The position numbers and the translations under genes are program-made. Under the pieces are notes generated by a model. The model was not told the DNA's origin and did no database searches. It worked only from the letters and a program-made list of their open reading frames with translations. Source: Kineococcus rhizosphaerae (GTDB lineage: Bacteria > Actinomycetota > Actinomycetes > Actinomycetales > Kineococcaceae). From it: a stretch of 64,000 bases of DNA. Location of the stretch: positions 434,001 through 498,000 of the forward strand of contig NZ_PVZF01000002.1 of assembly GCF_003002055.1 (NCBI RefSeq), written 5' to 3'. The stretch's first letter is position 1; every line of letters starts with the position of its first letter. Below are positions 4,547 through 47,425 of the stretch, one piece after another.

Positions 4547-5563
4547 TCAGCGACGGGCGAGCAGGCTGGAGGCCTCCTGGGCCGCGGGGGACTCCTTGTC
4601 CAGGTGCGCGAGCTGCTCGGGGATCGCGACCCCGCGCTTCTTCATCGCCCCGGCCCACAGCCGGCCCGCCCGGTAGGACGAGCGGACCAGCGGCCCCGCC
4701 ATGACGCCGGCGAAGCCGATCTCCTCCGCCGCCCGGCTGAACTCCACGAAGGCCTCGGGCTTGACCCAGCGCTCCACGGGGTGGTGCCGCGGCGTCGGGC
4801 GCAGGTACTGGGTGATCGTGATGATGTCGCAGCCGGCGTCGTGCAGGTCCTGCAGCGCGGCCAGGACCTCCTCGTCGGTCTCGCCCATCCCCAGGATGAG
4901 GTTCGACTTCGTCACCAGGCCCGCGGCGCGGCCCTGCGAGATGACGTCCAGCGACCGCTCGTAGCGGAACGCCGGGCGGATCGACTTGAAGATCCGCGGC
5001 ACGGTCTCGACGTTGTGCGCGAAGACCTCCGGGGCGGCGTCGAAGACCTGCTGCAGCAGCTCCGGGCGGCCGTTGAAGTCCGGCACGAGGATCTCGACGC
5101 CGGTGTGGAAGTCGCCGTCGGAGTTCAGCGCGTGCGTCTGCCGGATGGTCTCGGCGTACAGCCACGCCCCGCCGTCGGCGAGGTCGTCACGTGCGACGCC
5201 GGTGATCGTGGCGTAGCGCAGCCCCATCGTGCGGATGCTCTCGGCCACCCGGCGGGGTTCGTCGCGGTCCAGCGGCGACGGCTTGCCGGTGTCGATCTGG
5301 CAGAAGTCGCAGCGGCGGGTGCACTCGGAACCGCCGATGAGGAACGTCGCCTCGCGGTCCTCCCAGCACTCGTAGATGTTGGGGCAGCCCGCCTCCTCGC
5401 ACACGGTGTGCAGGCCGCCGGACTTCACCAGCCCCTTGAGCTCGGTGTAGTCCGGGCCGGTGCGCGCCTTGGTGCGGATCCAGTCGGGCTTCCGCTCGAT
5501 CGGCGTCTCGGCGTTGCGCGCCTCGATGCGCAGCATCCGACGGCCTTCCGGTGCGATCGTCAC
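4547..5563 (-). CDS. lipA: lipoyl synthase
   Basis: This radical SAM enzyme inserts two sulfurs at C6 and C8 of the octanoyl group on lipoyl domains. The 338-residue protein shows the auxiliary-cluster cysteines [12 protein letters not shown], the radical SAM triad CTRRCDFCQ and the C-terminal RSSYRAG segment. The start is the GTG at 5563, giving [17 protein letters not shown], which matches the usual actinobacterial N-terminus; a TACGCT hexamer (5570-5575, minus strand) lies six bases upstream, consistent with a leaderless mRNA. It acts with LipB (8984-9652) on the E2 protein encoded at 15232-17049. Confidence 0.96.
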
Positions 5564-5583
5564 CGGGCCAGCGTACGTGGGGG

Positions 5584-6957
5584 TCACGACAACGGCGTCC
5601 ACCCCCGGGCGTCGACCCCACCGGGCACGTCCGCCGCGGGGTCGTAGGGCGTGCGCGTGAGCCGGAAGCTGGCCAGGTCGAGGTGGCTCAGGACGCCCTC
5701 CGGCGTCCGCACCGGGCGCAGCAGTTCCCCGGCGTAGTAGTCGTCCAGTCCCCGCCACAGCCCGTCCCCGGCGCGGACGAAGCGCGACCCGCGACCCCTG
5801 CCCTGCATCCCCGCCAGCGTCAGGCCGTCCGGCGTGGCCCGCACGAGCAGGGGAGCCGGACCCCAGTACCAGGGGCCCACGAGCTCGAGGGCGTCGGCGG
5901 GCACGTCGTGCGGCACCCACGGCGTCGGGCGGTGCGGTTCGGCGTCGGTCATCGTCGCCAGCAGCCGGGCGGGCAGGTCGCCGAAACCCGTCGTCGAGTT
6001 CGTCAGGGCGACGACCCCGTCGCCCGTCGCGACGTCCACGCGCAGCATCGCCACGAAGCCCGGCATCGACCCGGAGTGCCCCGCGTGCCGGCGGCCGGCC
6101 GTGTTCCAGACCTGCAGGCCCAGCCCGTACCCGCTCGTCCACGCCCCGTCGCGGGCGTCGTCGACGCTCTGCGGTTCCCACATGCCCTCGACCGTGCTGC
6201 GCCGCAGGACCTCGGAGGTGCCCGCGACGACGGTGGCCCACCGGGCCAGGTCCGCGACCGTCGACCAGATCTGCCCGGCCGGGGCCATCGCCCCGCCGTC
6301 GTGCTCGGGTTCGGCGAGCACGACGTCCGCCCACGGGTGCACGGCCAGCCCGCGGGCGGCGGGCTGCTGCGGGCGCATCGTCGTGCGCGCCATCCCCAGC
6401 GGGTCGAGGAACTGCGCCTGCACGACCGTGCGCCAGTCCTCGCCACGCACCCGGCCCACGAGCTCGCCCAGGACGCCGAACCCGACGTTGGAGTAGTGGA
6501 AGCGGGTCCCGGGCCGGTGCCGCAGCGCCGAGGCCCCCAGCAGCGGGAGCAGCGTCTCCCAGCCGCCGCCGGCGGTCCGCTCCCACCACGGGCCGTCGGT
6601 CTCGGCCTGCACCCCGCCGGCCTGCCCCAGCAGCTGGCCGACCGTGACGCGGCCCACGCCGGCGGCGTCGAGCTCGGTCAGGTGCGCGCGCACGGGGTCC
6701 TCCAGCGCGACCAGACCGTCCTCGACCAGCCGCAGCACCGCGGCCGCCACGAACGTCTTGGTGATCGACCCGACCCGGTACTGGGTCTCGGCGCCGGGCC
6801 CGGCGTCCACCCCCGTCGTCCCCGCGGCCCCCGTCCACACGAGCTCGCCGTCGCGCACCAGGCCCGCGACGACCGACGGCAGTCGCGACGTGCGCTGCTC
6901 GGCGGCCAGCAGGTCGGCCAGCGTCCGGTTCGTCGTGGGCAGCAGAGCGGTCGTCAT
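5584..6957 (-). CDS. serine hydrolase, beta-lactamase/class C PBP-like
   Basis: This 457-residue protein belongs to the serine beta-lactamase-like family (esterases, D-aminopeptidases, class C enzymes). Seen are the SxxK nucleophile motif in VGSITKTF, the Tyr-Ser-Asn motif in FHYSNVGFG and a HSGSMPGF segment equivalent to the KTG box. A C-terminal region of about 120 residues follows the catalytic domain. No signal peptide is visible, so it is probably cytoplasmic and not a true beta-lactamase. The ATG at 6957 was chosen because the frame upstream runs into the divergent gene. Substrate unknown. Confidence 0.8.
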
Positions 6958-7008
6958 GCACCGACCTTGCCAGACGGCCCTGCTCGGGGGTGGGGCAGGA
7001 TGACGGCC

Positions 7009-7929
7009 GTGGATCTGCGCATCTTCACCGAACCCCAGCAGGGCGCCCGCTACGAGACCCTCCGCCGGGTCGCCGTGGCGGCCGAGCAGAACGGGTTCTC
7101 CGGCTTCTTCCGCTCCGACCACTACCTGACGATGGGCGGCGACGGTCTGCCCGGTCCCACGGACGCGTGGACGACCCTGGCGGCCCTCGCCCGGGACACC
7201 ACCACCATCCGGCTCGGGACGATGGTCACCTCGGCCACCTTCCGGTACCCCGGCGTCCTGGCGGTCCAGGTCGCCCAGGTCGACGAGATGTCCGGCGGCC
7301 GCGTCGAGCTCGGCCTCGGCTCGGGCTGGTACGAGGCCGAGCACGCCGCCTACGGCATCCCGTTCCCCTCCGTGGCCGAGCGGTTCGAGCGGTTCGAGGA
7401 GCAGCTCGCCGTCATCACGGGCCTGTGGGCGACGCCGGTGGGGGAGACGTTCTCCTACTCCGGTCAGCACTACGCGCTCGAGGACTCCCCGGCGCTGCCC
7501 AAACCCGTCCAGACCCCCGTCCCGGTCATCGTCGGCGGGGCCGCCAGGAAGCGCGGGGCGGCGCTCGCGGCCCGCTACGCGCACGAGTTCAACGTGCCGT
7601 TCTCCTCCCCGGCCGAGACCGCCGCGCGCATCGAGCGGGTGCGGGCGGCGTGCGCGGCGGCCGGCCGCGGCGACGAGCCCGCGTACAGCGCGGCGCTGAT
7701 CGTGTGCTGCGGCCGCGACGAGGCCGAGGTCGGGCGCCGGGCCGCGGCGATCGGCCGCGAGCCGGCCGAGCTGCGCGAGAACGGCCTCGCGGGGACCGTC
7801 TCCGAGGTCGTCGACGCCATCGGCCGGTACCGCGAGGTCGGGGTGGAGCGCGTGTACCTGCAGGTCATGGACCTCACCGACCTGGACCACCTCGAACTCG
7901 TCGCCGGGCAGGTCGCCCCGCAGCTGTGA
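7009..7929 (+). CDS. LLM-class F420-dependent oxidoreductase
   Basis: The protein is a luciferase-like TIM-barrel enzyme of the F420-dependent group. The N-terminus [17 protein letters not shown], the FFRSDHYL segment, the [19 protein letters not shown] segment and [17 protein letters not shown] are typical. The substrate is unknown. Two starts are possible: ATG at 7000 and GTG at 7009. The GTG gives the usual family N-terminus and has a CAGGAT hexamer (6996-7001) seven bases upstream. The gene is divergent from the serine hydrolase and is followed by a strong hairpin. Confidence 0.82.
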
Positions 7930-7934
7930 CGGCC

Positions 7935-7965
7935 GCGCGACCCTCCCCTCGCGGGAGGGTCGCGC
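7935..7965 (+). terminator. terminator hairpin after the LLM gene
   Basis: A perfect 13-bp stem (7935-7947 with 7953-7965) and five-base loop begins six bases after the stop codon. Confidence 0.75.
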
Positions 7966-8079
7966 AGGGTGTTCAGGTGTCCGAACGTCACCTCTGGTGA
8001 GAGTTGAACGACCGGTGCCGGCAGGGCACCCTCGCTGCACCAGACACCGCCGGGGTGTCGACGGTGACCGGGGGGCCAC

Positions 8080-8970
8080 GTGCACGACCGCGAGCGAGGG
8101 GACGTGCCGCTCGTCAGCGTCGGGGTCCCCGTCTACAACGGCGAGACCTACCTCGAGCAGACCCTCAGCGCCCTGCTCGACCAGACGTTCACCGACTTCG
8201 AGGTCGTCGTGTGCGACAACGCCTCGACGGACCGGACCCCCGAGATCGTCGAGAAGTTCGCCGCCGCCGACCCGCGGATCCGCTCCGTGCGCAACCCCGC
8301 CAACATCGGTCTGGCCCGCAACTTCAACCGGGTCTTCCAGCTCTCGCGGGGTCGGTACTTCCGGTGGGCGATGGCCGACGACCTCGTCGACGCGACGAAC
8401 CTCGAGGACTGCGTGGCTGCGCTGGAGGCCGACCCCGGCGCCGTGCTGGCCGTCCCGTCGTGGGACCTCATCGACGCCGACGGCGAACCCGCCCGGGGTG
8501 GTCGCGAGCTCGCGTCGTTCACGTGGGAGGCCGACGTGGCCGTCCGCATGCAGCAGTTCGTCGACATGGTCAACGGGGCGTCGTCCATCGCCGTCCTGGC
8601 GTACCTGTCCGGCCTGGTGCGCACCGAGGCCGTCTGGACCACCGACCAGCTCGGCAGCTACCCGTCCTCCGACCACGTCCTGCTGGCCCAGCTGCTGCTG
8701 CGCGGCCGGTTCGTCGAGGTTCCCCGCCGCTCCCTGCACGTCCGGCTGCACGAGGCCTCCGCCGGGCACGGCATCGGCACCGGCGACTGGGCCGCCGTCC
8801 ACCGCACGTTCTTCCCCGGCGTCGAACCGGAGAACCTGCTGCGCTGGCGCACGACCCGCTACCGCAGGATGTGGGACGTGCTGGAGCGCGCGGGATCGTC
8901 CCGCTCGCAGCGGGTCGCGCTGCAGGCGCACTACGCCAGGACGTCGGCCCGGGTCCTGCTGCCCTTCTGA
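8080..8970 (+). CDS. family 2 glycosyltransferase
   Basis: This GT-A fold glycosyltransferase transfers a sugar from a nucleotide-sugar to an unknown acceptor. The 296-residue protein shows the VSVGVPVYNGETYLEQTL entry strand, the DNASTDRTPEI motif and the FRWAMADDLVD segment carrying the DxD-like acidic pair, followed by a helical C-terminus with no membrane segment. The GTG at 8080 has a GGGGGG run five bases upstream; a GTG at 8104 is an alternative that would start at PLVSVGVP. It stands alone and converges on lipB. Confidence 0.8.
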   Translation: MHDRERGDVPLVSVGVPVYNGETYLEQTLSALLDQTFTDFEVVVCDNASTDRTPEIVEKFAAADPRIRSVRNPANIGLARNFNRVFQLSRGRYFRWAMADDLVDATNLEDCVAALEADPGAVLAVPSWDLIDADGEPARGGRELASFTWEADVAVRMQQFVDMVNGASSIAVLAYLSGLVRTEAVWTTDQLGSYPSSDHVLLAQLLLRGRFVEVPRRSLHVRLHEASAGHGIGTGDWAAVHRTFFPGVEPENLLRWRTTRYRRMWDVLERAGSSRSQRVALQAHYARTSARVLLPF

Positions 8971-8973
8971 GCG

Positions 8974-8996
8974 CCTGCCCGCGTCAGCCGGGCAGG
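8974..8996. terminator. compact shared hairpin between glycosyltransferase gene and lipB
   Basis: CCTGCCCG (8974-8981) pairs with CGGGCAGG (8989-8996). The lipB stop codon (8984-8986) lies in the seven-base loop, so one hairpin may serve both convergent genes. Confidence 0.5.
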
Positions 8997-9652
8997 TCCG
9001 TCCCGGGCAGCAGCCGCGTCACGACCTCGGCGGCGTCCAGCACCCCGATCCGCCGGCCCGCCCGGGCGCTCAGCGACGTCGCGCCGGCGTCCGGCAGCCC
9101 GCACGGCACGATGTGGCTGAAACCCTGCAGGTCCGTGTCGCAGTTCAGGGCGAAACCGTGCATGGTGACGCCCCGGGCGACGCGCACCCCGATCGCCGCG
9201 AGCTTGTTCTCCGCGCGCCAGCCGGGCACGAGCGGTTCGTCGGCCGTCCAGACGCCCGTGCGGTCCGGCACGCGGTAGCCCTGCACGCCGAACTCGGCGG
9301 CGACGGCGATGAGCAGTTCCTCCAGCCGCCGCACGTACCCCACGACGTCGAGGGAGCCGCGCAGCCTTACGATCGGGTAGCCGACGAGCTGCCCCGGTCC
9401 GTGCCAGGTGATGCGGCCGCCGCGGTCGACGTCGACGACGGGAGTCCCGTCGTCGGGCCGTTCCCACGAGTTCGTGCGGCGGCCGGCGGTGTAGACGGGG
9501 GAGTGCTCCAGGAGCAGGACGGTGTCGGGGACCTCACCCGCGACGACCTGCGCGTGCCGGGTGCGCTGCAGCTCCCACGCCTCGACGTAGTCGACGGGTT
9601 CGACGCCGAGGCGGACCGGTTCGACGAGGAGTTCGCGGGTGCGCACCGTCAC
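8984..9652 (-). CDS. lipB: lipoyl(octanoyl) transferase
   Basis: LipB transfers octanoate from acyl carrier protein to the lysine of lipoyl domains, the step before LipA. The 222-residue length is normal. Visible are the GRRTNSW substrate loop, the [19 protein letters not shown] signature, the KLAAIGVRV catalytic lysine region and [22 protein letters not shown] with the catalytic cysteine. The GTG at 9652 has a TACTCT hexamer (9659-9664, minus strand) six bases upstream, a leaderless arrangement. Confidence 0.96.
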
Positions 9653-9682
9653 GCCAGCAGAGTACGTCCCGCACGCCGCACC

Positions 9683-10150
9683 TCAGGTGGTCGTCCCGTC
9701 CGAGGTCCCTGTGCCCGTGCCCGTGCCCGTGCCACCGTCCTGCTGGCCGAGCTGGGTGCCGTCGGGCAGCTGGCCCCGTCCCTGGTCCGTCGTCCCGTCG
9801 GGGAACCCGCCACCGAACGGTCCGCTGCCGTCCGCGGACCCGGGGAACTGCCCGCTGCCCGGCACGAGCTGGCTCGTGGCCGTCGAGGTCGTCGAGTGAC
9901 CGATCGCGTACCCGGCGCCCCCGCCGCCCAGCAGCAGCACGAGCCCGGCCCCGGCCAGGGCGAACGGCACCCACCGGCGGCGCGGCCGGACGACGGGGAC
10001 GGCGTTCACGCCCGTCACCCAGGCCGCCGGGGGCCAGTTCGGGGCGTGCGCGGCGTACCCGGTGTGCGGGACGGGGGTGGCGCCCGGCGCGGTCGCGCCG
10101 GAGAAGCCGACGACGGTGCCGTCGAGGGGCTGGTTCTCGTTCTGGTCCAT
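9683..10150 (-). CDS. small single-pass membrane protein with Gly-rich exterior tail
   Basis: No family is recognised. The 155-residue protein has a Pro/Ala-rich N-terminus, a basic RPRRRW stretch, one membrane helix (about residues 61-82) and a Gly/Ser/Thr/Asp-rich tail ending in GTGTGTGTGTSDGTTT, encoded by a run of CCCGTG hexamers near 9715-9735. The topology is probably cytoplasmic N-terminus and disordered outer tail. The ATG has a strong AGGAGG site. It lies 30 bp downstream of the lipB start, on the same strand. Confidence 0.6.
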   Translation of the reverse strand: MDQNENQPLDGTVVGFSGATAPGATPVPHTGYAAHAPNWPPAAWVTGVNAVPVVRPRRRWVPFALAGAGLVLLLGGGGAGYAIGHSTTSTATSQLVPGSGQFPGSADGSGPFGGGFPDGTTDQGRGQLPDGTQLGQQDGGTGTGTGTGTSDGTTT

Positions 10151-10350
10151 CAGGTCCTCCTGCGCGCGAGCTGCGGTCGGAGAACACCGTCACAGGCCCC
10201 ACCCAGCGCAGCCGGTGGGCCGGCTGTGCGTCGGCCGTGACGCGCCCGACGACCGGGCCTCGGAGCGCGAGGTGTGCCTCCGGCCGGAGGATCGGGTCCG
10301 GGAGGGCGCGAGGTGTGCCCGGCGCCCCGGGGCGGGTCGGTGAGGACGGG

Positions 10351-11085
10351 TCAGCGGTGCAGCGGACGGGGCTCCACCCGCGTCTCGACGACCCCGCCGC
10401 CCTCGCGGCGCACGATCCAGGCGCCCTTGCCGGGCACCTCCGAGACGGCTTCGACGAGCTCGGTGCCCTGGTACACCAGCCCCACGCCGTCGTCGCTGCA
10501 GTGCGTCTCCCCGAGGACGCCCGAGCCCACGAGCTCGTGCACGAGCGGCCGGCGCCGGGCCTCGGAGTCGTAGTGCACGCCGTTGCCGTAGGGCAGCAGA
10601 CCCAGCCCGTTCGTCACCGGACGCAGCTGCGGACCGAACGAGTCCGTCGTGCCGCCCGCGAACCAGCAGATGGACCCCGCGCTGACCCCGCCGAGCACGA
10701 CCCCGGCCTCCCACGCGGCGCGGAACGCCTCCTCCAGCCCGTGCACGCGCCACACCGCCAGCAGGTTCGCCACCGAACCGCCGCCGACCCACACGACGTC
10801 CGAACCCAGCAGCAGGCCCGCGGGGTCGTCCACGCTCGGCAGGGGGAACAGGTCCAGCACGGTCGTGCGGAACCCCGCGCGCTCACCCGCGGCGTGGACC
10901 TCCGCCGCCCACGACCGCTGGTCGCCGCCGGCCGTCCCCAGGTACGTCAGGCGCGGGGCGCGCCCGGCCGGGACCCGGGCCAGCTCCACCGCCAGGTGCG
11001 CGGTACCGGCCCAGTCGACCCCGCCGAGATCGCGGCGCGTCCAGCCCCCCGACGTCGCGACGATCGTGGGCGCCTCAGCGGGCAC
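10351..11085 (-). CDS. S51-family peptidase E-like protein
   Basis: This 244-residue class I glutamine-amidotransferase-fold protein resembles peptidase E (alpha-aspartyl dipeptidase). The nucleophile elbow is GVSAGS (Ser135), with VVWVGGGSVANLL before it and YGNGVHYD (His171) after it as the likely catalytic histidine region. Substrate specificity is inferred only from the family. The GTG start overlaps the end of the upstream flavoenzyme gene by 11 bp, so the two are probably co-transcribed. Confidence 0.78.
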   Translation of the reverse strand: MPAEAPTIVATSGGWTRRDLGGVDWAGTAHLAVELARVPAGRAPRLTYLGTAGGDQRSWAAEVHAAGERAGFRTTVLDLFPLPSVDDPAGLLLGSDVVWVGGGSVANLLAVWRVHGLEEAFRAAWEAGVVLGGVSAGSICWFAGGTTDSFGPQLRPVTNGLGLLPYGNGVHYDSEARRRPLVHELVGSGVLGETHCSDDGVGLVYQGTELVEAVSEVPGKGAWIVRREGGGVVETRVEPRPLHR

Positions 11086-12403
11086 TGTGGAAACCGTTGC
11101 GGCCGAAGGCCTTCACCAGCACCGCGTCCGCGGCGCGGCGCCCCGAGACCAAGGCACCCTGCAACGAGGCGTTCTCCCGGTGGTCACCCGCCACGAACAC
11201 GTTCTCGCCGGCGTCGACGGGTTTCGGCCCCTCGAAGGGAGGCGCCACGACCGGCAGCGCGTGCGGGATCGCGTGCGCCGCGACCCGCGTCCAGGCCGCC
11301 GCGTTCACGCCGTACACGCGGCCGAGCTGTTCGCGGACCCGCGTCTCGGTGGCCTCGCTCACGTCCGCGCCGAGCACCTGCGCGCTGACCAGCGCCCGGT
11401 GGTCGGAGCCGGCCAGGACGTACCCGGGCGCGACCGCGGAGACGACCGCGGAGTTCACGACGGGACCGGTCCGGTCACCGTCGAGGTGCAGCAGCTTCTC
11501 GCGCGCGGCGGGAGCCGGTGACGTGGCGGCACCGAACCAGAACGTCGAGATGGCGTTGCTCTCGGGGACCTGCAGACCCGGCACGAGGTGGCCGGCCGCG
11601 TGCGCGTCCGTGGCCACGACGATGGCCTCGCAGTTCACGCCACCCTCGGCGGTCTCCACCACCAGGGAACGGGGCGCGTGCCCGATGTGCCGGACCTCCA
11701 CGCCCGTCACGACGCTGCCCGCCGGCAGCCCCGCGGCCAGCTGGTCGGGGACGGCCTGCATGCCGCGTGCGGGGACCCCCGGGGTCCCGCGCAGGAACGT
11801 GCGGACCAGCAGGTCCACGAAGCGGCGCGACGTCGTCCCGTCGACCTCGCCGACGACCCCGGCCAGGAACGGTTCGAGCACCGACCAGCGCAGCTCGCCG
11901 TGGACCTCGGCGGCGTCCAGACCGTCCGACCAGCCCGAGTCCTCGCCCTTGAGGTCCGCGGCCGACGTCACGCGCAGCAGCCACCGGGCCACCGCGGCCT
12001 TCTCCTTCGCGGTCCCCAGCGGGAAGCGCAGCGCCTCCAGCACCGCCGCGGGGTGGCGGCGCGGGTCCCGCACCGCGCTGACGCGGCCCCCGCGGTGCAC
12101 GGCCACCCCCGCGTCGAACGGCTGCAGGTCCAGGGCGTCCAGGTCGAGGACCTTCGCCACCTCCGGGTACGCCGGGTTCAGCAGCTGGAAACCGCGGTCG
12201 ACCCGGAAGCTGCCGATGGTCTCCGAGCGCACCCGCCCCCCCACCGCGTCGGCGGCCTCCACGACGAGCACGTCGATCCCGGCGGCCGCGAGGTGCCTGG
12301 CGCAGACCAGGCCGGCCAGCCCCGCGCCGACGACGACGACCTCGGCCGACGAGCGCAGCGCGGCGGGCGGGTGGGGGGTCTCGAGAGTGGAGCTGACGGT
12401 CAC
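11075..12403 (-). CDS. FAD-dependent amine oxidase/protoporphyrinogen oxidase-like protein
   Basis: This 442-residue flavoprotein begins with an FAD dinucleotide-binding motif VVVVGAGLAGLVCARHLAAAGIDVLVVE and the GGRVRSE segment of the amine oxidase/HemY superfamily. The C-terminal FAD contact region is ENVFVAGDHRENASLQGALVSGRRAAD. The substrate is unknown; similar proteins act on carotenoids, amines or porphyrinogens. The GTG at 12403 was chosen over longer options because a TACGCT hexamer (12411-12416, minus strand) lies seven bases upstream. Confidence 0.82.
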   Translation of the reverse strand: MTVSSTLETPHPPAALRSSAEVVVVGAGLAGLVCARHLAAAGIDVLVVEAADAVGGRVRSETIGSFRVDRGFQLLNPAYPEVAKVLDLDALDLQPFDAGVAVHRGGRVSAVRDPRRHPAAVLEALRFPLGTAKEKAAVARWLLRVTSAADLKGEDSGWSDGLDAAEVHGELRWSVLEPFLAGVVGEVDGTTSRRFVDLLVRTFLRGTPGVPARGMQAVPDQLAAGLPAGSVVTGVEVRHIGHAPRSLVVETAEGGVNCEAIVVATDAHAAGHLVPGLQVPESNAISTFWFGAATSPAPAAREKLLHLDGDRTGPVVNSAVVSAVAPGYVLAGSDHRALVSAQVLGADVSEATETRVREQLGRVYGVNAAAWTRVAAHAIPHALPVVAPPFEGPKPVDAGENVFVAGDHRENASLQGALVSGRRAADAVLVKAFGRNGFHSAR

Positions 12404-12471
12404 ACCCCAGAGCGTATCGACCCTGTGGACAGCGAGCGCGGCAGTCCCCGCCCGTGCGTCACCCTGTCCCC

Positions 12472-14241
12472 GTGACCCTCTCCGAGCCCACCACCGGCCC
12501 CCTCGGCGCGCGTCGTGACGCGCCCGGGGACGGCGGACCCGCGGACCCCGCGAGCCCGGTCCGGCAGTGGCGCCGCGCGACCCTGGCCGCCCTCGCCGAC
12601 GACCCGCGGCGGCAGCCGCCGGTCGTCGACGGGTACGCGGTGGGCGCGCTCCTGGGCGCCGGTGGGTCCAGCGTCGTGTGGTCCGGGACCGGCGTCGACG
12701 GCGTGGAGCGCGCCCTGAAGGTCCTCGCACCCCACACCGACACCGACCTGCTCGCCGAACTGTCGGTGCTGCGCCGGGTGCGTCACCCGCGAGTGGTTGC
12801 CGTGCAGGACATCTCGACGACCTCCGACGGCCGGCCCGTCCTCGTCCTCGACCTCGTCCCCGGCGGGTCGCTGGCCGGGCTGCTCACCCGCCGCCGGCGG
12901 TTGTCGGCCGGTGAGGTCTCCGGGCTGCTCGCCGTGCTGGGGCCCGCTCTGGAGGACCTGCACGCCGCCGGGGTCGTCCACGGCGACATCGCCCCCGGCA
13001 ACGTCCTGCTCGACGCCCGGGGCGAACCCGTGCTGGCCGACCTCGGGGTCGCCCGGGCCCTGGGACGCCGCCACGGCAGCGTCCTGGGCACCCCCGGCTT
13101 CGCCGACCCCGCGGCCGTGGCCGGGGAGGGCGTGGGCGCCGCCTCCGACGTCTACGGCCTCGCGGCGCTGGCCTGGTACGCCCTCACGGGTGAACCTCCC
13201 GCCCCCGGCGGGGCGCTCGCCGCGCGGGCCGCACGGCGTCGCGCGCTCGCGGACCTGCCGCCCGGCAACGGCGCCCCGGTGCTCGAGGCGCTGCGCGAGG
13301 GGCTGCACCGCAAGCCGTCCCGGCGCCCGACCCCGGGGGAGCTGGCGAGCGCGGTGGCCGCCGCCGCCCGGCCCCGGCCCGTGCGGGGGCTCACGGCTCC
13401 CGCGGCCGGTGCGGTCCCCGCTGCGCCCGTGCCGGCGCCTCCGCGGGTCACGCAGCTGGTGGCGGCCCCGGCGGTCGGTCCGGAGGTGGACCCGGCGCCG
13501 GTTCGGACCTCGCACCCTCGCCCGGCGTCGGCTCGCGGATCGGCTCGTGCCTCGACCCGCAGCGACGCGCGTCGCGTCGCACGACCGCAGCGGGGGCGTC
13601 CGTCGCGCCGCCTGGTGGTGGCCGGGACCCTGCCCGTGGTGGCCGCGGTCGCCGTCGTCCTGCTCTGGCGCACCGGGGCGTTCGAGGGCCCGGCCCCCGC
13701 TCCGTCGACCGCTGCCGCCGGCGCGACGCTCGCACCGCGCGCGGCGGCTCCGGTCCCCGCCGAACCCGCCCCCGACGAACCCGCCACCGCCGAGCCGGTC
13801 GCAGCCGAGCCCGTCACCGAGCCCGTCACCGAGCCCGTCACGGAGGTGACGGGGTCGGACGTCCTGCGCGGCGACGACGCCGGGGCGGTCGTCGCCGAGC
13901 TCGCCGACCGGCGGGCCCGGGCGCTGTCCTCCGGACAGACCACGGGCCTCGACCTCGTCGACGTCGCCGGCTCACCGGCGCGCACCACGGACGAGCAGCT
14001 CCTCGCCGAGCTGACGGCGGGCGGCGCGACGGTCGAGGCCCTCGGGTTCGACGTGCGGGCCGTGCGCGAGGTCGACCGCGCGGCGGACCGGTGGGTGCTG
14101 CAGGCCGACGTCACCACCGGTGAGCACGTCGTCGTGTCCGCCTCCGGGACGCGGCGGACGGTCCCGGCGGGCCGGCCGCGCACGTCCACGCTGACCCTGC
14201 AGCGCGTCGCGGGGGAGTGGCGGGTCAGCGACGTCGGCTGA
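12472..14241 (+). CDS. Ser/Thr protein kinase-like membrane protein with HGD and DLG motifs
   Basis: The 589-residue protein has a Hanks-type kinase domain (about 54-300), a Pro/Ala-rich linker, one membrane helix (about 385-405), an extracytoplasmic linker with EPVTEPVTEPVTEV repeats, and a C-terminal domain of about 120 residues. The glycine loop is LLGAGGSSVVW and the ATP lysine is probably Lys83 (ERALKVL). The catalytic loop reads HGDIAPGN (Asp172 kept, Arg replaced by Gly) and the metal motif reads DLG (Asp190). The key acidic residues remain, so activity is possible, but the missing Arg suggests no classical activation-loop phosphorylation. A GTG at 12454 is an alternative start. It is divergent from the flavoenzyme gene. 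Confidence 0.78.
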   Translation: MTLSEPTTGPLGARRDAPGDGGPADPASPVRQWRRATLAALADDPRRQPPVVDGYAVGALLGAGGSSVVWSGTGVDGVERALKVLAPHTDTDLLAELSVLRRVRHPRVVAVQDISTTSDGRPVLVLDLVPGGSLAGLLTRRRRLSAGEVSGLLAVLGPALEDLHAAGVVHGDIAPGNVLLDARGEPVLADLGVARALGRRHGSVLGTPGFADPAAVAGEGVGAASDVYGLAALAWYALTGEPPAPGGALAARAARRRALADLPPGNGAPVLEALREGLHRKPSRRPTPGELASAVAAAARPRPVRGLTAPAAGAVPAAPVPAPPRVTQLVAAPAVGPEVDPAPVRTSHPRPASARGSARASTRSDARRVARPQRGRPSRRLVVAGTLPVVAAVAVVLLWRTGAFEGPAPAPSTAAAGATLAPRAAAPVPAEPAPDEPATAEPVAAEPVTEPVTEPVTEVTGSDVLRGDDAGAVVAELADRRARALSSGQTTGLDLVDVAGSPARTTDEQLLAELTAGGATVEALGFDVRAVREVDRAADRWVLQADVTTGEHVVVSASGTRRTVPAGRPRTSTLTLQRVAGEWRVSDVG

Positions 14242-40428: not shown

Positions 40429-41442
40429 TCAGCGGGTGGCGCGGTGGCGGACGAAGCGCGACAGGCCCACCGCCACGACCAGGGCGCCGCCGTAGAAGAG
40501 CTGCTGCACGAAGCTCTGGGCTCCCAGCATCTGCAGACCGACGACGCCGGAGGACAGGAAGTACACGGCCACGACGGTCCCCACGGGGTTGAACTGACCG
40601 GGGACGATGGCCGTGGCCCCCAGGTAGGCCGCGGCGAAGGCGGGCAGCAGGAAGGACTGCGCGGAGGACGGGTCCGCGCCGCCGAGCGCACCGGCGTAGA
40701 CGACACCGGCCAGCCCCGCGACGAGGGAGCACGACAGGAACGCCCCGGCGCGCAGCCGGGGCACGTTGAACCCGGACAGCTTCGCCACGGCCGGGGACCG
40801 GCCCACGAAGAGCAGCCGTCGCCCGAGCGGGGTGAACTCCAGGACCAGGGCGAGGACGGCGGCCGCGGCGAGGCCGTAGAAGAACTGCAGCGGGACGCCG
40901 AGGACGCGGCTGCCGACGGTCGCCTGCACGAGGTGGGCGTCGATCCCGGTGACCGTCGACTGGCCGGAGATCCACTGCACGACGCCGAGGGCGAACGTCC
41001 CCGACCCCAGCGTCACGATGAACGACGGGATGCCGAACAGCACGACGCCGAGGGCGTTGACGACCCCGACGGCCAGCGCCGCCCCGACACCGGCCAGCAC
41101 GGCGCTGCCGATGCTCCAGCCGTGCTGGACGTTCAGGACGGCGGTGACCATCGAGCTCAGCCCGAGCGCGGAGGCCACGGACAGGTCGAACTCCCCGGTG
41201 ATGAGCGGCAGCAGGACCCCGAGGGAGGCGATGAGCAGGACGGCCTGCGAGCCCAGGACGCTCTGCAGGTTGCCGGCCGTCGGGTACACGTCGGGTCGGG
41301 CGATCGAGAACACGACGAGCACGACGAGCCAGACGCCGAGGAGGGCGAACCGCTCGGCGTGGGCGCCGAACCCGCGACGTCGCGTCGTGGCGACCTCCCC
41401 GGGGGCGGCGACGGTCGTCGTGGACTGGGTGCTCGTGGTCAC
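40429..41442 (-). CDS. ABC transporter permease (RbsC/BPD_transp_2 type)
   Basis: This 337-residue permease has about nine helices of the branched-chain/ribose group, with the family motif LPLITGEFDLSVASALGLSSM and IVTLGSGTFALGVVQWISG. Its GTG overlaps the ATPase stop by four bases (GTGA), so the proteins are translationally coupled. With the ATPase and binding protein it forms a complete importer. The gene order with rutA and a nitrilase suggests a pyrimidine or nucleobase-like substrate; ribose or nucleosides are other possibilities. Confidence 0.88.
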   Translation of the reverse strand: MTTSTQSTTTVAAPGEVATTRRRGFGAHAERFALLGVWLVVLVVFSIARPDVYPTAGNLQSVLGSQAVLLIASLGVLLPLITGEFDLSVASALGLSSMVTAVLNVQHGWSIGSAVLAGVGAALAVGVVNALGVVLFGIPSFIVTLGSGTFALGVVQWISGQSTVTGIDAHLVQATVGSRVLGVPLQFFYGLAAAAVLALVLEFTPLGRRLLFVGRSPAVAKLSGFNVPRLRAGAFLSCSLVAGLAGVVYAGALGGADPSSAQSFLLPAFAAAYLGATAIVPGQFNPVGTVVAVYFLSSGVVGLQMLGAQSFVQQLFYGGALVVAVGLSRFVRHRATR

Positions 41443-43031
41443 GAGGCCTCCCTCTCGAGCGCGGTGGGGTGCGGACGGGGACCGGGCAGCAGCCTCGTGC
41501 TGGACAGCACCCGGTCGGACAGGACGGCCTGGTTCAGGTCCGCCCCGGACAGTTCGGCGACGACGTGACCGCGGGCCAGGACGAGGACCCGGTCGCAGAC
41601 GGTGGCCAGCTGCTCGTAGTCCGAGCTGGCCAGCAGGATCGAGGCGCCGCGCTCGGCGGTGCGCCGCAGCAGGTCGAAGACGAACGCCTTGGCGCCGACG
41701 TCGATGCCCTGGGTGGGTTCGGCGAGCAGGACGACCCGCGGGTCCGTCTGCAGCCACTTGGCCAGGACGGCCTTCTGCTGGTTCCCGCCCGAGAGCGTCC
41801 CGAACGCCTTGCCGGGGTCGAACGGGCGGACGTCGTAGGCCCGGCACAGTTCGGCGGCGCGCCGGCGCAACGCCGTGCGGTCGAGCCGGAAGCGGGTGCC
41901 CAGCGTCGTCATGACCGGCATGGTCACGTTCCGCTCGACGGACTCCTCGGCGATGCCGCCGTCGCGCCGGCGGTCCGCGGGCACGTGGACGACGCCCGTC
42001 GCCAGGGCTCTCGACGGGGTCAGCGTCGACAGCTGCAGGGCGTCGCGATCCACCAGGAGGTCCCCGGACACCTTGCCGCCCGCCCCGTACAGCGCGGGCA
42101 GCACCTCGGCGTACCCGGACCCGGCGAGCCCGGTCAGCCCCAGGACCTCGCCGCGGGCGACGTCGAAGGAGATCCCCGCCAGGCGCGGGGAGGTCAGGGC
42201 CGCGACCTGGACGCGGCCCCGGCCGGCGACGGGGCGTTCCGGTGCCGCCGGACCGCTGACCGCGTGCCGGCGCACGGCGGCGGCGAGGTCGGCGCCCACG
42301 ATCAGCTCGGTCAGGCCCGCCGGGTCGGTCGTGGCCGACTCGACGGTGCCGGCCACCCGCCCGTCGCGCAGCACGGTCACGGCGTGGGTGTGGTCCAGGA
42401 CCTCGGTGAGGTCGTGCGAGACCAGCAGCACCGACGTGGACCCGTCCGCGACGAGGTCGGCCACGACGCGGAACAGCAGGTCGGTGCCCTCCCGCGGCAG
42501 GAACACCGTGGGTTCGTCGAGGATCAGCAGCGTCCGGTGCTCGCCGAGCTCGTCGACGGCGCGCAGGATCGCCACGAGCGCCCGCTCGGTGTCGCTGAGC
42601 GTCGCCACCGGGGCGGCGGGGTCGATGTCGAGCCCGTGGCGGCGCAGCGTCTGCCCGGCCAGGCGCCGTTCGGTCCGCCAGGAGACCACGGCGCGCCGGG
42701 CGGCGATCCCCTGCGCGATGCGCATGTTCTCCGCGACCGACAGGTCCGGCAGCAGCCCGAGGTCCTGGTGGACGACGCTGATGCCGAGGTCGCGGAACGC
42801 GCCCGGCGGCAGGGGCAGGTCCACCTCGCGGCCCCGGACCTCCAGCCGGGCGCCGGGGTCGGGTTCGTGGACGCCCGTGAGGACCTTGATGAGCGTCGAC
42901 TTGCCCGAGCCGTTCTCCCCGAGGAGCCCGTGGACGGTCCCGGCGGGGATCTCCAGGGTGACGTCGTCGAGGGCGCGCTGGGCGCCGAACGTCTTCGACA
43001 GCCCCGACAACCGGATCGCGGGGGCTGTCAC
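41439..43031 (-). CDS. ABC transporter ATP-binding protein, two fused nucleotide-binding domains
   Basis: This 530-residue ATPase of the RbsA/MglA type drives import. Domain 1 has Walker A GENGSGKST, Walker B LLILDEPT and a degenerate signature LSDTERALV; domain 2 has a degenerate Walker A (TGLAGSGYAEVLPA), a normal LSGGNQQKAVLAKWL signature and Walker B VVLLAEPTQGIDV. Such asymmetry is normal for the family. The GTG overlaps the binding-protein stop by four bases. Confidence 0.9.
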   Translation of the reverse strand: MTAPAIRLSGLSKTFGAQRALDDVTLEIPAGTVHGLLGENGSGKSTLIKVLTGVHEPDPGARLEVRGREVDLPLPPGAFRDLGISVVHQDLGLLPDLSVAENMRIAQGIAARRAVVSWRTERRLAGQTLRRHGLDIDPAAPVATLSDTERALVAILRAVDELGEHRTLLILDEPTVFLPREGTDLLFRVVADLVADGSTSVLLVSHDLTEVLDHTHAVTVLRDGRVAGTVESATTDPAGLTELIVGADLAAAVRRHAVSGPAAPERPVAGRGRVQVAALTSPRLAGISFDVARGEVLGLTGLAGSGYAEVLPALYGAGGKVSGDLLVDRDALQLSTLTPSRALATGVVHVPADRRRDGGIAEESVERNVTMPVMTTLGTRFRLDRTALRRRAAELCRAYDVRPFDPGKAFGTLSGGNQQKAVLAKWLQTDPRVVLLAEPTQGIDVGAKAFVFDLLRRTAERGASILLASSDYEQLATVCDRVLVLARGHVVAELSGADLNQAVLSDRVLSSTRLLPGPRPHPTALEREAS

Positions 43032-44203
43032 GGCTGGCCCCACAGCGCCTCGTACCCGGCGACGTAGGCGTCGCCGTAGCCCGTGCCGGCCTGCGGCGGC
43101 TCGCCGGTGGCGTCGATGTTGTCGTCGGTGAACACCTTCAGCGGGGTGCCCTCGTTCCCGTCGGCGACGATCGGGGAGCCGGTCAGGATCCGGCCGGCCT
43201 GGTCGAGGGTGGACCACGCCAGCCAGGAGATGTTCTCGCCGACGTCCATGCCCATGACGTCGCCGTCCTGGATGAGCTTGAGCACGTCCGGGGTCCCGTT
43301 GAACGACGCCATCTGCACCTGCCCGGTCTTACCCGCGGCGGTGATGCCCTGCTGGGCGTACAGCGACATCGAGTCGTAGACGGGCAGGACGTAGTTCGCG
43401 CCCGGGTTCGACTGCAGCGCCGTCTGGACCTCACCGGAGATCTTGGTCGCCCAGTCGGTCGTGGGGACGTTCACGACCTTGCTCGTGCAGCTCGGGCAGT
43501 TCTGCTTCAGCGTCGCCTGCATCGACTCGACCATCCCGTTGGAGGGCGGGACCTCCTGGGAGGTGATGATGATCGCGTTCACCTTCCCGCCGGAGTCGGC
43601 GATGGCCCAGTTCGCGATGAGCGCGGCGGCCTCGTTGAACGGGGCCGTCACCTGCGCGGCGATGAGCGGGGCGGTGCCGGGGCTGAACGTCGTGCCGGTC
43701 TGCTGGGTGTGGGTCACCAGCACGGGGATCCCGGCGGCCTCGGCCCGCTGCAGCGCCGGGGTGAGCAGGTCGGCGTTGATGCCCTGGGCCAGGACGATGA
43801 GGTCGGCCCCCTGGCTGATGGCCTGGTCGATGCCGGCGCTGTGCTCGGTGGGGGAGCCCTGGTTCGTGTACTCCACCCACGTCGCGCCGTACTTCTGAGC
43901 GATGGCCGCGCTCTCGGTGTCGACGGCCTGGATGTACGGGATGGCGCTGGAGTTGGGGATGTTGAAGATCTTCTTGCCCGCGATGCCGGACATCGCGAAC
44001 GCGGGCGCCTCGAGGGTGAACGCCGGGTCACCGGTCGCGGCGGCGACGGCCGCCTTCGCGGCACTGACCCCCGCCTCGTCGGTGGCGCCACCCCCGGTGG
44101 AGGCCTGCCCGCTGCTGCAGGCGGCGGTCGCGGCGGTCAGCCCGAGGGTGAGGAACAGCGCGGCGGAGCGCAGCAGGGGACGGCGCGGCACGGCGAGGGG
44201 CAC
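43028..44203 (-). CDS. sugar-type ABC transporter substrate-binding lipoprotein
   Basis: This 391-residue lipoprotein has a signal peptide ending ATAACSS (lipobox) and two lobes of the ribose-binding (PBP1) fold, with QAISQGADLIVLAQGINADLLTPALQRAEAAGIPVLVTHT and MESQ-free lobe boundaries typical of the fold. It lies on the outer face of the membrane and delivers ligand to the permease. The GTG has AGGAG at good spacing. It follows the nitrilase gene by 66 bp and is coupled to the ATPase gene. Confidence 0.88.
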   Translation of the reverse strand: MPLAVPRRPLLRSAALFLTLGLTAATAACSSGQASTGGGATDEAGVSAAKAAVAAATGDPAFTLEAPAFAMSGIAGKKIFNIPNSSAIPYIQAVDTESAAIAQKYGATWVEYTNQGSPTEHSAGIDQAISQGADLIVLAQGINADLLTPALQRAEAAGIPVLVTHTQQTGTTFSPGTAPLIAAQVTAPFNEAAALIANWAIADSGGKVNAIIITSQEVPPSNGMVESMQATLKQNCPSCTSKVVNVPTTDWATKISGEVQTALQSNPGANYVLPVYDSMSLYAQQGITAAGKTGQVQMASFNGTPDVLKLIQDGDVMGMDVGENISWLAWSTLDQAGRILTGSPIVADGNEGTPLKVFTDDNIDATGEPPQAGTGYGDAYVAGYEALWGQP

Positions 44204-44269
44204 GGAGTTCTCCTGGGTTTCGGGGGCTGTTGCTCGGGGCTCGTGCGGGGGTTCGTGCAGGGGAGGGGC

Positions 44270-45175
44270 TCAGGAACGGGCGGTGAGGCGGGCGAGCAGG
44301 TCGACGACGTCGGGACGCCGGTCGCGCAGCAGGGGGAAGCGGGCGCGGGTGCTGCGCACGAGGTCGAGGTCGAGGTCCACCTGCAGGACGTGCCCGGCCT
44401 CGTGCGCGGGGGCCTGCGCGAGGACGGCACCCGTGGGGTCCACGGCGCACGAGCGGCCGAAGTAGCTGACCGAGGTGCCGTTGAGGTGCTCGACCCCGGC
44501 GCGGTTGGCGGCCAGGACGAACACCTGCGACTCCATGGCCCGGACCTGCAGTTCGGTGGTGAACAGCTCTTCGCGGTTGCCGAGGGAACTGACGACGGCC
44601 AGCACGACGTCGGCGCCCATGGCCCGGGCCAGGGCCCAGTGTTCGGGGAACGAGCGGTCGTAGCAGATGACGGCGGCGAACCGGACGCCGAGCAGGTCCA
44701 GGACGACGGGGGACTGCCCGGGGGTGAAGAAGAACTTCTCGTCGACGTCCACCCCGCCCACGTGGTTGGCCGGCAGAGACAGCTTCCGGTACGCGGGCCG
44801 GGGGTTCCCGTCCGCGTCGGTCCAGGCCAGCAGCCGCCCGCTCGCGTCGACGGCCACGGCGGAGTTGTGCAGGACGTCGGCAGCCGTGCGTTCGTACATG
44901 CCCCAGACGATCGCGACGCCGAGTTCGGCGGCCAGCGCCGAGAACCGTTCGGTCGTCGGGCCGGGCAGTTCCTGGGCCCACCCGCTGCGGTCGGCGGCGC
45001 GGGAGGTGCAGAAGTACGGCGTCGTGATGAGTTCGGGCAGCAGCACGAGGTCGGGGGCCGGGGCGTCGGCGGGACGGGCGGCGGCCCGGACCAGACCCTC
45101 CAGGACGTCGAGGTTCTTGCCGCGGTCCTCGGTGCACTCACCGGCCTGGACGACCGCGGCGCGCAACCGGCTCAC
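44270..45175 (-). CDS. nitrilase-superfamily carbon-nitrogen hydrolase
   Basis: This 301-residue alpha-beta-beta-alpha hydrolase has the catalytic triad Glu in [13 protein letters not shown], Lys in PAYRKLSLP and Cys in [17 protein letters not shown]. It resembles beta-ureidopropionase, N-carbamoylputrescine and N-carbamoyl amino acid amidases, which cut ureido (N-carbamoyl) groups. Its GTG overlaps the rutA stop by four bases. In this place it may do the work of RutB (ureidoacrylate hydrolysis); this is inference from context. Confidence 0.88.
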
Positions 45176-46254
45176 GCCGGGACCCCCGCCGCGACGTGCG
45201 CGCGGCTGGTCATGAGCGGCTGGATCCGTTCCCCGAACGCGTCGACGCCCGCGACGAAGTCGTCGAACGTCAGCATGACGCCCGCCAAGCCGGGGACGGT
45301 GGCGAGCTCGTCGAGCATCCGGGCCACGTTCTCGTAGGACCCGATGAGGGTGCCCATGTTGAAGTTCACGGCGCCCTCGGGCAGCGAGATGGTGCGGGCC
45401 GTGGAGTTCTCGTCCGCGGCGGTGTCGGCGGCGGCCTCGTTCCCGCGGTAGTCCAGGGCCTCGACGTCGGCGTTGTCGTGGTAGTCCTGCCACTTCGCGA
45501 AGGCGAGCTCGTCGGTCTCGTCGGCGATCACCATGAACAGGGCCAGGGCCCCGACGTCGCGCCCGCTGGCCCGGCTCGCGGCCAGCAGGCGTTCACCGTG
45601 CGGGGCCATCGCCGTGGGGGTGTTGATGCCGACGCCGTTGAGGAAGTCGTACTCGACGTTCTCGGCGGCGAAGCGGATCCCCGTCTCGGACTGTCCCGCG
45701 GCGACGATGTCCACGTGCCCGGGGCGCGGGGACAGGACGCAGTCGTCCATGGCGTAGAACTCCCCGGCCAGGTCGCTGCGGCCGGTCTCGGTGAGGTCGC
45801 GCAGGACCTTGACGTACTCCGTCGCCCGGGCGTACCGGTTCGAGAAGTGCTCGTCACCGGGCCACAGGCCCATCTGGGTGTACTCCCCGGGGGCCCAGCC
45901 CGTGACGATGTTCACGCCGATGCGGCCGGGGGCGATGGAGTCGATGGTCGAGACCATGCGGGCCACCATCGCCGGGGGCAGGGTGAGGATGGCCGTCGAG
46001 GCGTACAGCTTGATGCGCTCGGTGACGGCGGCCAGCCCCGCCATGAGGGTGAAGGACTCCAGGTTGTGGTCCCAGAACTCGGTCGCCCCGCCGAAACCGC
46101 GCAGTTTGATCATCGACAGGGCGAAGTCGAAACCGTGCTGCTCGGCCTTCTGCACGATCGTCTTGTTGAGCTCGAAGCTGGGCATGTACTGCGGGGCCGA
46201 CTTCGAGATCAGCCACCCGTTGTTGCCGATCGGGATGAACACTCCGACGTCCAC
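45172..46254 (-). CDS. rutA: RutA-type pyrimidine oxygenase (flavin-dependent)
   Basis: RutA opens the uracil or thymine ring between N3 and C4 using reduced FMN and oxygen. The 360-residue LLM-fold protein closely follows my memory of E. coli Rut[96 protein letters not shown]-like and [14 protein letters not shown]. The GTG follows GGAGGAG. No rutC-F gene is in the window. It heads a five-gene operon. Confidence 0.9.
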
Positions 46255-46289
46255 GACGCTCCTCCACGGTGCGGTCCGGTCCGTGCGGC

Positions 46290-46336
46290 TGACTTCGAAT
46301 GCACATGACTTCGAATGCCGCAGCAGCTCGAAACTA
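46290..46336 (-). promoter_or_regulatory. candidate rutA promoter and direct-repeat operator
   Basis: TGACTTCGAATGC occurs twice on the plus strand (46290-46302 and 46306-46318), 16 bases apart and each holding a TTCGAA palindrome. On the minus strand TAGTTT (46331-46336) is a possible -10, which would put the repeats just downstream of the transcription start. This position suits a repressor; the LacI-type protein encoded just upstream is the natural candidate. Confidence 0.55.
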
Positions 46337-46387
46337 GGGGTGTCCCGTTGCCTGCGCGTCTCGGGCCTGTGAACAGGGTGTTTCGCC

Positions 46388-47425
46388 TCAGCGGGCGGGG
46401 ACCGGTCCGCTCGTCGAGGACCGCACCAGCAGTTCGGCGGGGAACTGCCGGTGCACCACCGGGGCCTGCGGGTCACCCAGGCGCGCCACCAGGAGCCGGG
46501 CGGCCTCCGCACCCATCTCGTCGAACGGCTGGCGCACCGTCGTGAGGTCGAACATCGACCACCCCGCGAAGAGCGAGTCGTTGTAGCCGACCACGTGCAG
46601 GTCGGCCGGTACGCGCAGACCCGCACCGTGGGCCGCGTCGAGGGCGCCCAGGGCGATCCAGTCGGTGATGCAGAAGACGGCCGTCGGGACGTGGCGGTGG
46701 GTCAGGAACCCCCGCATCGCGGCGTGACCCGTCGCCGGGTCCACCGGCCCGTGGGTGAACAGCGAGCGGGGCAGCGCCACCCCGGCCGCCGCGAGCTCCT
46801 CCCGGAACCCCTGCTCGCGGTCGCGGCTGCTGGCGTTGTCCCGGGGCCCGCCCACCAGGGCGATCCGCCGGTGCCCGATGCCCAGCAGGTGCCGCGCCAC
46901 CAACCGGCCCCCCGCGCGGTTGTCCGACGTCACCCGGTCCGTGCGGCGCGTCTGCGCGTCGGCGTGGTCGCGGGCCAGCAGGACCACCGGCAGCCCCCGC
47001 GCCCGCAGGGCCGCCACCAGCTCCAGGTCCGGGCGCATCGAGTTGAAGACCACGCCGTCGACCGCCCCGCCGTGCAGCGCCTCCACGTCCCGGCTGTGCG
47101 CCCCCTCGGTCTGGTCGCTCATGAGGACGACCCGGTAGCCGTGCGCGGAGAACTCCCGCTGCAGCGCCGTCACCAGCGTCGGGGTGCTCGGGTTGTGCAG
47201 GTCGCCGCTGATGACGGCGATGGTGTGGGTGCGCTGGGTGATGAGGTTGCGGGCCCCGACGTGCACGACGTAGCCCAGCTCGGCCGCCCGCGCCTTGACC
47301 AGCTCCCGGGTGGCCGGCACGACCCGGGGATCGTCGCGCAGCGCCCGCGAGACCGTCGACTGCGACAGCTTCAGGTCGCGCGCCAGGTCGTACCCGGTGA
47401 CGCGGCGCACGGGGAGGGAGGTCAC
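46388..47425 (-). CDS. LacI-family transcriptional regulator
   Basis: This 345-residue repressor has an N-terminal helix-turn-helix ([23 protein letters not shown]), hinge helix region and a periplasmic-binding-protein-like effector domain ending with [16 protein letters not shown]. It is encoded 133 bp upstream of rutA on the same strand and probably controls it in response to the imported ligand. The GTG at 47425 has TACGCT (47432-47437, minus strand) six bases upstream, consistent with leaderless expression. Confidence 0.92.

Follow-up and report, generated by a model that had tools for sequence, protein, structure and literature searches.

A conserved, putative variant of the Rut pathway with a nitrilase gene beside rutA in Kineococcus rhizosphaerae

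A stretch of 64,000 nucleotides from Kineococcus rhizosphaerae (assembly GCF_003002055.1, contig NZ_PVZF01000002.1, positions 434,001 to 498,000; the whole stretch is called the window below) carries an operon in which the gene of the flavin-dependent pyrimidine monooxygenase RutA stands beside a nitrilase gene and the genes of an ATP-binding cassette (ABC) importer, behind a LacI-family regulator. Judged from the DNA and from its comparison among genomes, this variant of the Rut pathway, with a nitrilase next to RutA, is real and is conserved, and the operon is one of two halves of a larger cluster. We think it rather probable, if far from certain, that the genes form one module of an actinobacterial Rut-pathway variant that scavenges pyrimidine nitrogen, uracil or thymine being most likely the substrate.

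The first-pass annotation of this DNA had described six genes in the order LacI, RutA, nitrilase, binding protein, ATPase and permease. This order is borne out, with all genes on the minus strand, and the family names given then agree with the NCBIfam and Pfam scans; the operon so pictured is real and incomplete, being one of two halves. The linkage by GTGA overlaps holds at three junctions (RutA/nitrilase, binding protein/ATPase and ATPase/permease) but not between the nitrilase and the binding protein, whose genes are 66 bp apart. The gap between LacI and RutA measures 133 bp and contains a promoter-like region.

By its sequence the oxygenase is RutA proper, with predicted activity on pyrimidines: it exceeds the curated NCBIfam cut-off for this family (Table 1) and is ~62% identical to E. 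coli RutA. The available parts of PMC7662398 and PMC10005588 list seven residues of the O2 pocket or the flavin side of RutA (L65, T105, N134, V136, W139, F224 and E292). With a numbering offset of 19, which is inferred, L65, N134, V136, W139 and F224 are kept in the window RutA (five of seven identical), and T105 is replaced by S in all 18 aligned RutA rows. Among 72,556 plasmid records, 66 match RutA, led by Pantoea (23) and Escherichia (12); on a Thioclava plasmid (L083, NZ_CP149933.1) the surroundings of a 69.6% identical RutA include two amidases, a GntR regulator and a flavin reductase, RutB not being annotated within the stretch shown. A plasmid origin of the window genes was rejected, since the nitrilase has no match in the same records at E 1e-30.

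The nitrilase is a CN_hydrolase that scores far under all equivalog cut-offs (134.2 vs 410.25 bits for AguB, TIGR03381). Its Glu-Lys-Cys triad and R174 (Table 1) are invariant in 12 of 12 aligned nitrilases. The profile matches rank N-carbamoylputrescine amidase above Pyrococcus nitrilase and this above D-carbamoylase, with beta-ureidopropionases also among them. The structural neighbours of the AlphaFold model (mean predicted local distance difference test, pLDDT, 84.6) are the same as the profile neighbours, and in the structure search the nitrilase is ~20–30% identical to solved carbamoyl hydrolases. The nitrilase has in common with D-carbamoylase the stretch C-x-D-R-x-x-P-E-x-W, whose arginine we take to hold the substrate carboxylate in D-carbamoylase; N-carbamoylputrescine amidase has Gln in its place. 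Such features would fit a ureido-acid substrate, for example ureidoacrylate.

The other half of the cluster lies on contig C3 of the window genome (G000, 63 contigs, 5.6 Mb), where a second RutA, 81% identical to that of the window, is found in the order LacI, RutA, AtzE-like amidase, MFS protein and isochorismatase-family hydrolase; the contig terminates ~245 bp past the LacI gene. No RutB over the cut-off is present in the window genome, the best match reaching 148.9 of 377.95 bits. Within the family, 3 of 12 genomes (the window genome counted) have RutA at E 1e-100. In G009 the cluster is split in the same way, and no LacI gene adjoins rutA1 there, whereas the sister genome G001 has a single joined cluster formed by LacI, binding protein, ATPase, permease, RutA, nitrilase, amidase, MFS, isochorismatase-like and riboflavin-kinase-like genes, in which LacI precedes the binding-protein gene. 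A tree of 18 RutA sequences unites both copies of G000 with both of G009 in a group of four with support of 98/98, which places the duplication within the genus.

The grouping of rutA, nitrilase and importer, for which the first-pass annotation had proposed a search of other actinobacteria, is conserved, for example in loci of Rhodococcus, Nocardia and Gordonia. A nitrilase scan of genome contigs gave 12 loci, nine of which also carry an amidase and an isochorismatase-like gene (five Rhodococcus, one Nocardia, two Gordonia and one Amycolatopsis; the named loci hereafter). RutA and LacI are visible in eight of the nine, L027 being cut at a contig edge, and the MFS gene with the ABC trio in eight, the exception being Amycolatopsis. 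Genes of a flavin mononucleotide (FMN) reductase and a flavin reductase come next in six; two loci end too soon, and L028 (Rhodococcus sp. HM1) has an NtaA-family monooxygenase instead. This monooxygenase gene, at 11460–12479 after the permease gene, encodes a protein 81% identical to that of a cluster on contig C15 of the window genome. The LacI of the Rhodococcus ruber locus (L034, 6638–7696) appears split into two open frames, as a stop codon within the gene would cause, and L026, recorded as a metagenome-assembled genome of Rhodococcus, is labelled Cyanobacteriota in the tree, the label or the binning being possibly off. The remaining three loci (Cellulosimicrobium twice and Puerhibacterium: L035, L036 and L037) combine a nitrilase of 47–53% identity with an MFS gene and lack RutA. 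The neighbours in L036 (an amidase, an Oxidored_FMN gene and two genes of the polysaccharide-deacetylase family) and in L035 (an IclR regulator) suggest another ring-opening route.

Among 394 genomes of the class, RutA is found in 10 (E 1e-100) and the nitrilase in 7 (E 1e-60), and all seven nitrilase genomes have RutA (Fisher p ~4e-13 for the co-occurrence; 1e-6 with genera collapsed). The two genes overlap in the window genome and are 3.8–4.4 kb apart in the other six. The neighbours of RutA were examined in eight of the nine other RutA genomes of the class, G235 (49% identity) being left out. Six of these eight, all small genomes, hold RutA, a nitrilase (42–46%) and a CUT2 trio within ~10 kb, and their loci gave no match to the LacI, amidase, MFS or isochorismatase-like queries. 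Gene-by-gene reading covered L055 and L057, and family scans L055; the genes in between encode a GntR-like regulator, identified by reading, two flavodoxin-fold reductases, a CoA transferase and an HMG-CoA-lyase-like protein, and on the other side of RutA there is a hydrolase weakly like RutD (83.2 of 238.5 bits). In G219 (L053, 8064–9125) a RutA gene has none of the cluster's partners beside it. Because these six small genomes have kept the nitrilase and the importer with RutA but gave no match to the other hydrolases, we think that a nitrilase substituting for RutB, as the first-pass annotation had it, is the best reading of these comparisons.

The regulation proposed earlier was right in placing a LacI protein where RutR would be, which is now supported by a matching conserved operator, but it missed this operator as well as a GlnR-box-like array upstream of it. 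The array of the window is a single exact match, against an expectation of 0.02 when up to 3 mismatches are allowed. In eleven genomes, 13 rutA promoters (five from the window's genus and eight from the named loci) can be aligned gap-free: they have four half-sites of 5 bp separated by 6-bp spacers, then 10 bp and TAnnnT. Half-site positions carry on average 1.43 bits of information vs 0.56 in the spacers, without correction for relatedness, and the third half-site is weak outside the window's genus. The GlnR site is given as gTnAc-n6-GaAAc repeats in the available part of PMC10704036, and the repeats of the window promoter, with their 6-bp spacers, agree with that description. A degenerate form of the array has 7 sites in the window genome and 0 in the control. 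Apart from the rutA promoters, which account for two of them, they lie before the genes of a glutamine synthetase and an amino acid permease and at those of BtpA, of the C15-cluster monooxygenase and of a protein that lacks a Pfam match and reads like a membrane protein.

The operator TTCG[AC]AGTCA follows TAnnnT immediately in 11 of the 13 promoters, and the other two, the rutA1 promoters, have perfect copies further downstream. A scan of the 5.6 Mb for the form CATTCGMAGTCA gave 3 hits, none of them away from the two rutA promoters, and 0 in the control. Of 27 scanned sources, 15 have the operator, all with the cluster, and the 12 sources without the cluster lack it; moreover, all 8 loci of Rhodococcus, Nocardia and Gordonia that have importer genes carry it before the binding-protein gene as well. 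Both GlnR and LacI are predicted, from these sites, to bind at the rutA promoter.

Regarding the importer, its domain set (Peripla_BP_4, ABC ATPase and BPD_transp_2) is of the CUT2 type according to Pfam, and its proteins score under the curated cut-offs of all the sugar equivalogs among the NCBIfam matches listed. The earlier claim that an ABC importer replaces RutG finds support. The importer genes are in an operon with RutA. Deriving the ligand from a model of the binding protein was uninformative (mean pLDDT 75.5; template modelling scores of ~0.45–0.57 to many sugar binders). A sugar operon with enzyme genes adjoining by chance would explain why regulator and importer resemble ribose systems; however, the association is kept across several genera, rutA and the importer share one operator and a GlnR-like array is present, so we consider this explanation very improbable.

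Candidate suppliers of reduced flavin are encoded elsewhere in the genome. The cluster's flavin reductase belongs to PF01613 and is a weak match to RutF (42.4 bits vs a cut-off of 254.75). At the end of C3 the contig cuts the gene after the first 56 residues; homologues elsewhere are found on C1 (87%), C3:164982 (79%, reported with one TGA), C8 (38%) and C14 (partial). The absence of RutC-F had been claimed for the window only, and these weakly RutF-like homologues qualify it for the whole genome; RutC, RutD, RutE, RutG and RutR are not seen in the window half, no genome-wide search for them having been made. Another riboflavin-kinase-like gene of the window genome (72%) adjoins a flavin reductase gene (86%; L064, 645–2022). 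A distant RutA homologue, ~40% identical and with a score of 284.9 bits that falls short of the RutA cut-off, is encoded on contig C15 (L010, G000:C15:50000-66000, 5482–13825). Its neighbours are NtaA-family monooxygenases, a riboflavin kinase gene and an ABC trio akin to that of the window; a GlnR-like array precedes the first monooxygenase. Breakdown of riboflavin or lumichrome was rejected as the role of the main cluster, since the published pathway opens the ring with LumH and RutA is not named in the available part of PMC12746152; it is retained solely as a lead for the C15 homologue.

In the pathway that we propose, GlnR would activate the promoter under nitrogen shortage and LacI would leave the TTCGAAGTCA operator once substrate or product is present. 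The pyrimidine would be imported by the ABC importer, and a flavin reductase encoded elsewhere in the genome would supply reduced FMN to RutA. The ring would then be opened by RutA at the amide to a ureido acid, which from uracil would be ureidoacrylate, the RutA product according to the available part of PMC7662398. The nitrilase would strip the carbamoyl group to give ammonia, CO2 and aminoacrylate, and the latter would decay or be deaminated.

Several observations weigh against this scheme. E292 of E. coli RutA is not kept, being N in the window RutA, and no whole SsuE-like FMN reductase was found in the window genome, which gave two contig-end fragments and one weak match. The nearest named families of the importer carry sugars. 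The half-site count of the array beats 500 of 500 shuffles in the five window-genus promoters only; no shuffle of 500 reaches the observed count in the window's genus, whereas for the eight named loci between 6 (L033) and all 500 do so, and for the two without LacI 354 and 499. The fixed-register alignment is better evidence than half-site counting, though it is anchored on TAnnnT and its rows are related. The six small-genome rutA promoters show neither array nor operator. Furthermore, the complete cluster holds two further hydrolases that uracil would not need, and in genome G312 RutA is directly followed by an isochorismatase-like gene, without a nitrilase.

This last case limits the claim that a nitrilase stands in RutB's place: the six small-genome loci and G312 together indicate that either hydrolase can be the partner of RutA. 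The RutB substitute might itself be the isochorismatase-family enzyme encoded in the second half, with the nitrilase and the AtzE-like amidase acting on further amide or ureido bonds, be it in a substituted pyrimidine or in a second substrate. RutB has an isochorismatase fold (PDB matches 8bkd and others named RutB), and the isochorismatase-like gene is present in 9 of 9 named loci. We find this unlikely, since the C3 protein reaches only 47.7 bits to RutB (cut-off 378), is nearer to a putative isochorismatase and to N-carbamoylsarcosine amidohydrolase, lies outside the window operon and has no counterpart in the six loci with RutA, nitrilase and importer.

The two further hydrolases mean, in turn, that the substrate may be larger or that there may be several. 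A pathway for another uracil-ring compound (a substituted pyrimidine, xanthine, pteridine or alloxazine) needing several amide or ureido hydrolases is possible, though we hold it doubtful. It would account for the three hydrolase families found together in all nine named loci and for the surroundings of the C15 homologue, and for 7-carboxylumichrome the available part of PMC12746152 reports that other enzymes open the ring and carry out urea hydrolysis. On the other hand, the window RutA is well over the pyrimidine-utilization equivalog cut-off, and the six loci manage with a single hydrolase. A broader picture can be offered only tentatively: in several actinobacterial genera a RutA-type oxygenase may open a range of uracil-ring compounds beyond free pyrimidines, brought in by a dedicated CUT2-type importer, while nitrilase, AtzE-like amidase and isochorismatase-like enzyme, three unrelated families, would be exchangeable modules acting on the opened products; the split into two operons that still share operator and nitrogen box would have come about in the window's genus when RutA and LacI were duplicated.

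Table 1. Genes and promoter elements of the operon (positions within the window)
Feature	Position	Strand	Basis
LacI-family regulator	46388..47425	-	Pfam LacI + Peripla_BP_3; 57% identity to LacI of second half
RutA, flavin-dependent pyrimidine monooxygenase	45172..46254	-	TIGR03612 610 bits, cut-off 498.3
Nitrilase-superfamily hydrolase, proposed ureido-acid amidohydrolase	44270..45175	-	PF00795; E48, K131, C171, R174
Peripla_BP_4 substrate-binding protein	43028..44203	-	Pfam scan
ABC importer ATPase, sugar (CUT2) type	41439..43031	-	NCBIfam and Pfam scans
ABC importer permease, BPD_transp_2	40429..41442	-	NCBIfam and Pfam scans
GlnR-box-like array GAAAC-n6-TTCAC-n6-GAGAC-n6-GCAAC	46347..46384	-	single exact match in window
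TAGTTT, candidate -10 element, 10 bp past array	46331..46336	-	position common to 13 promoters; anchor chosen by the author
Operator copy 1, CATTCGAAGTCA	46306..46317	-	operator scan
Operator copy 2, CATTCGAAGTCA	46290..46301	-	operator scan

The Rut pathway has been described with a fixed cast of enzymes. If pyrimidine scavenging by this cluster is true, an unrelated family fills the step after RutA, a sugar-type importer serves a nitrogen heterocycle and pyrimidine use in actinobacteria is jointly gated by GlnR and a LacI repressor. It would also exemplify how a catabolic cluster comes apart when its first enzyme and its regulator are duplicated. Two enzymes, one binding protein and one operator of the cluster lend themselves to direct tests.

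Among the matches listed from the open-licence PMC literature, in the parts available, there is no description of the rutA-nitrilase-importer arrangement, and its closest relative is the E. coli Rut pathway (rutR and rutA-G; the annotated copy, with an incomplete gene table, comprises rutR, rutA, rutC, rutD, malonic semialdehyde reductase and rutF). Both have RutA, and flavin reductases in the wider cluster recall the E. coli system, but the window has a nitrilase beside RutA in a genome without RutB over the cut-off, LacI with a GlnR box vs RutR, and an ABC importer vs RutG. With the CUT2 sugar importers it shares a binding protein, a two-domain ATPase and a permease, differing in the operon shared with RutA and in scores under the sugar equivalog cut-offs. 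As in the reductive uracil pathway with its beta-ureidopropionase, a nitrilase-superfamily enzyme is proposed to act on a ureido acid, whereas the ring would be opened by RutA in the window system.

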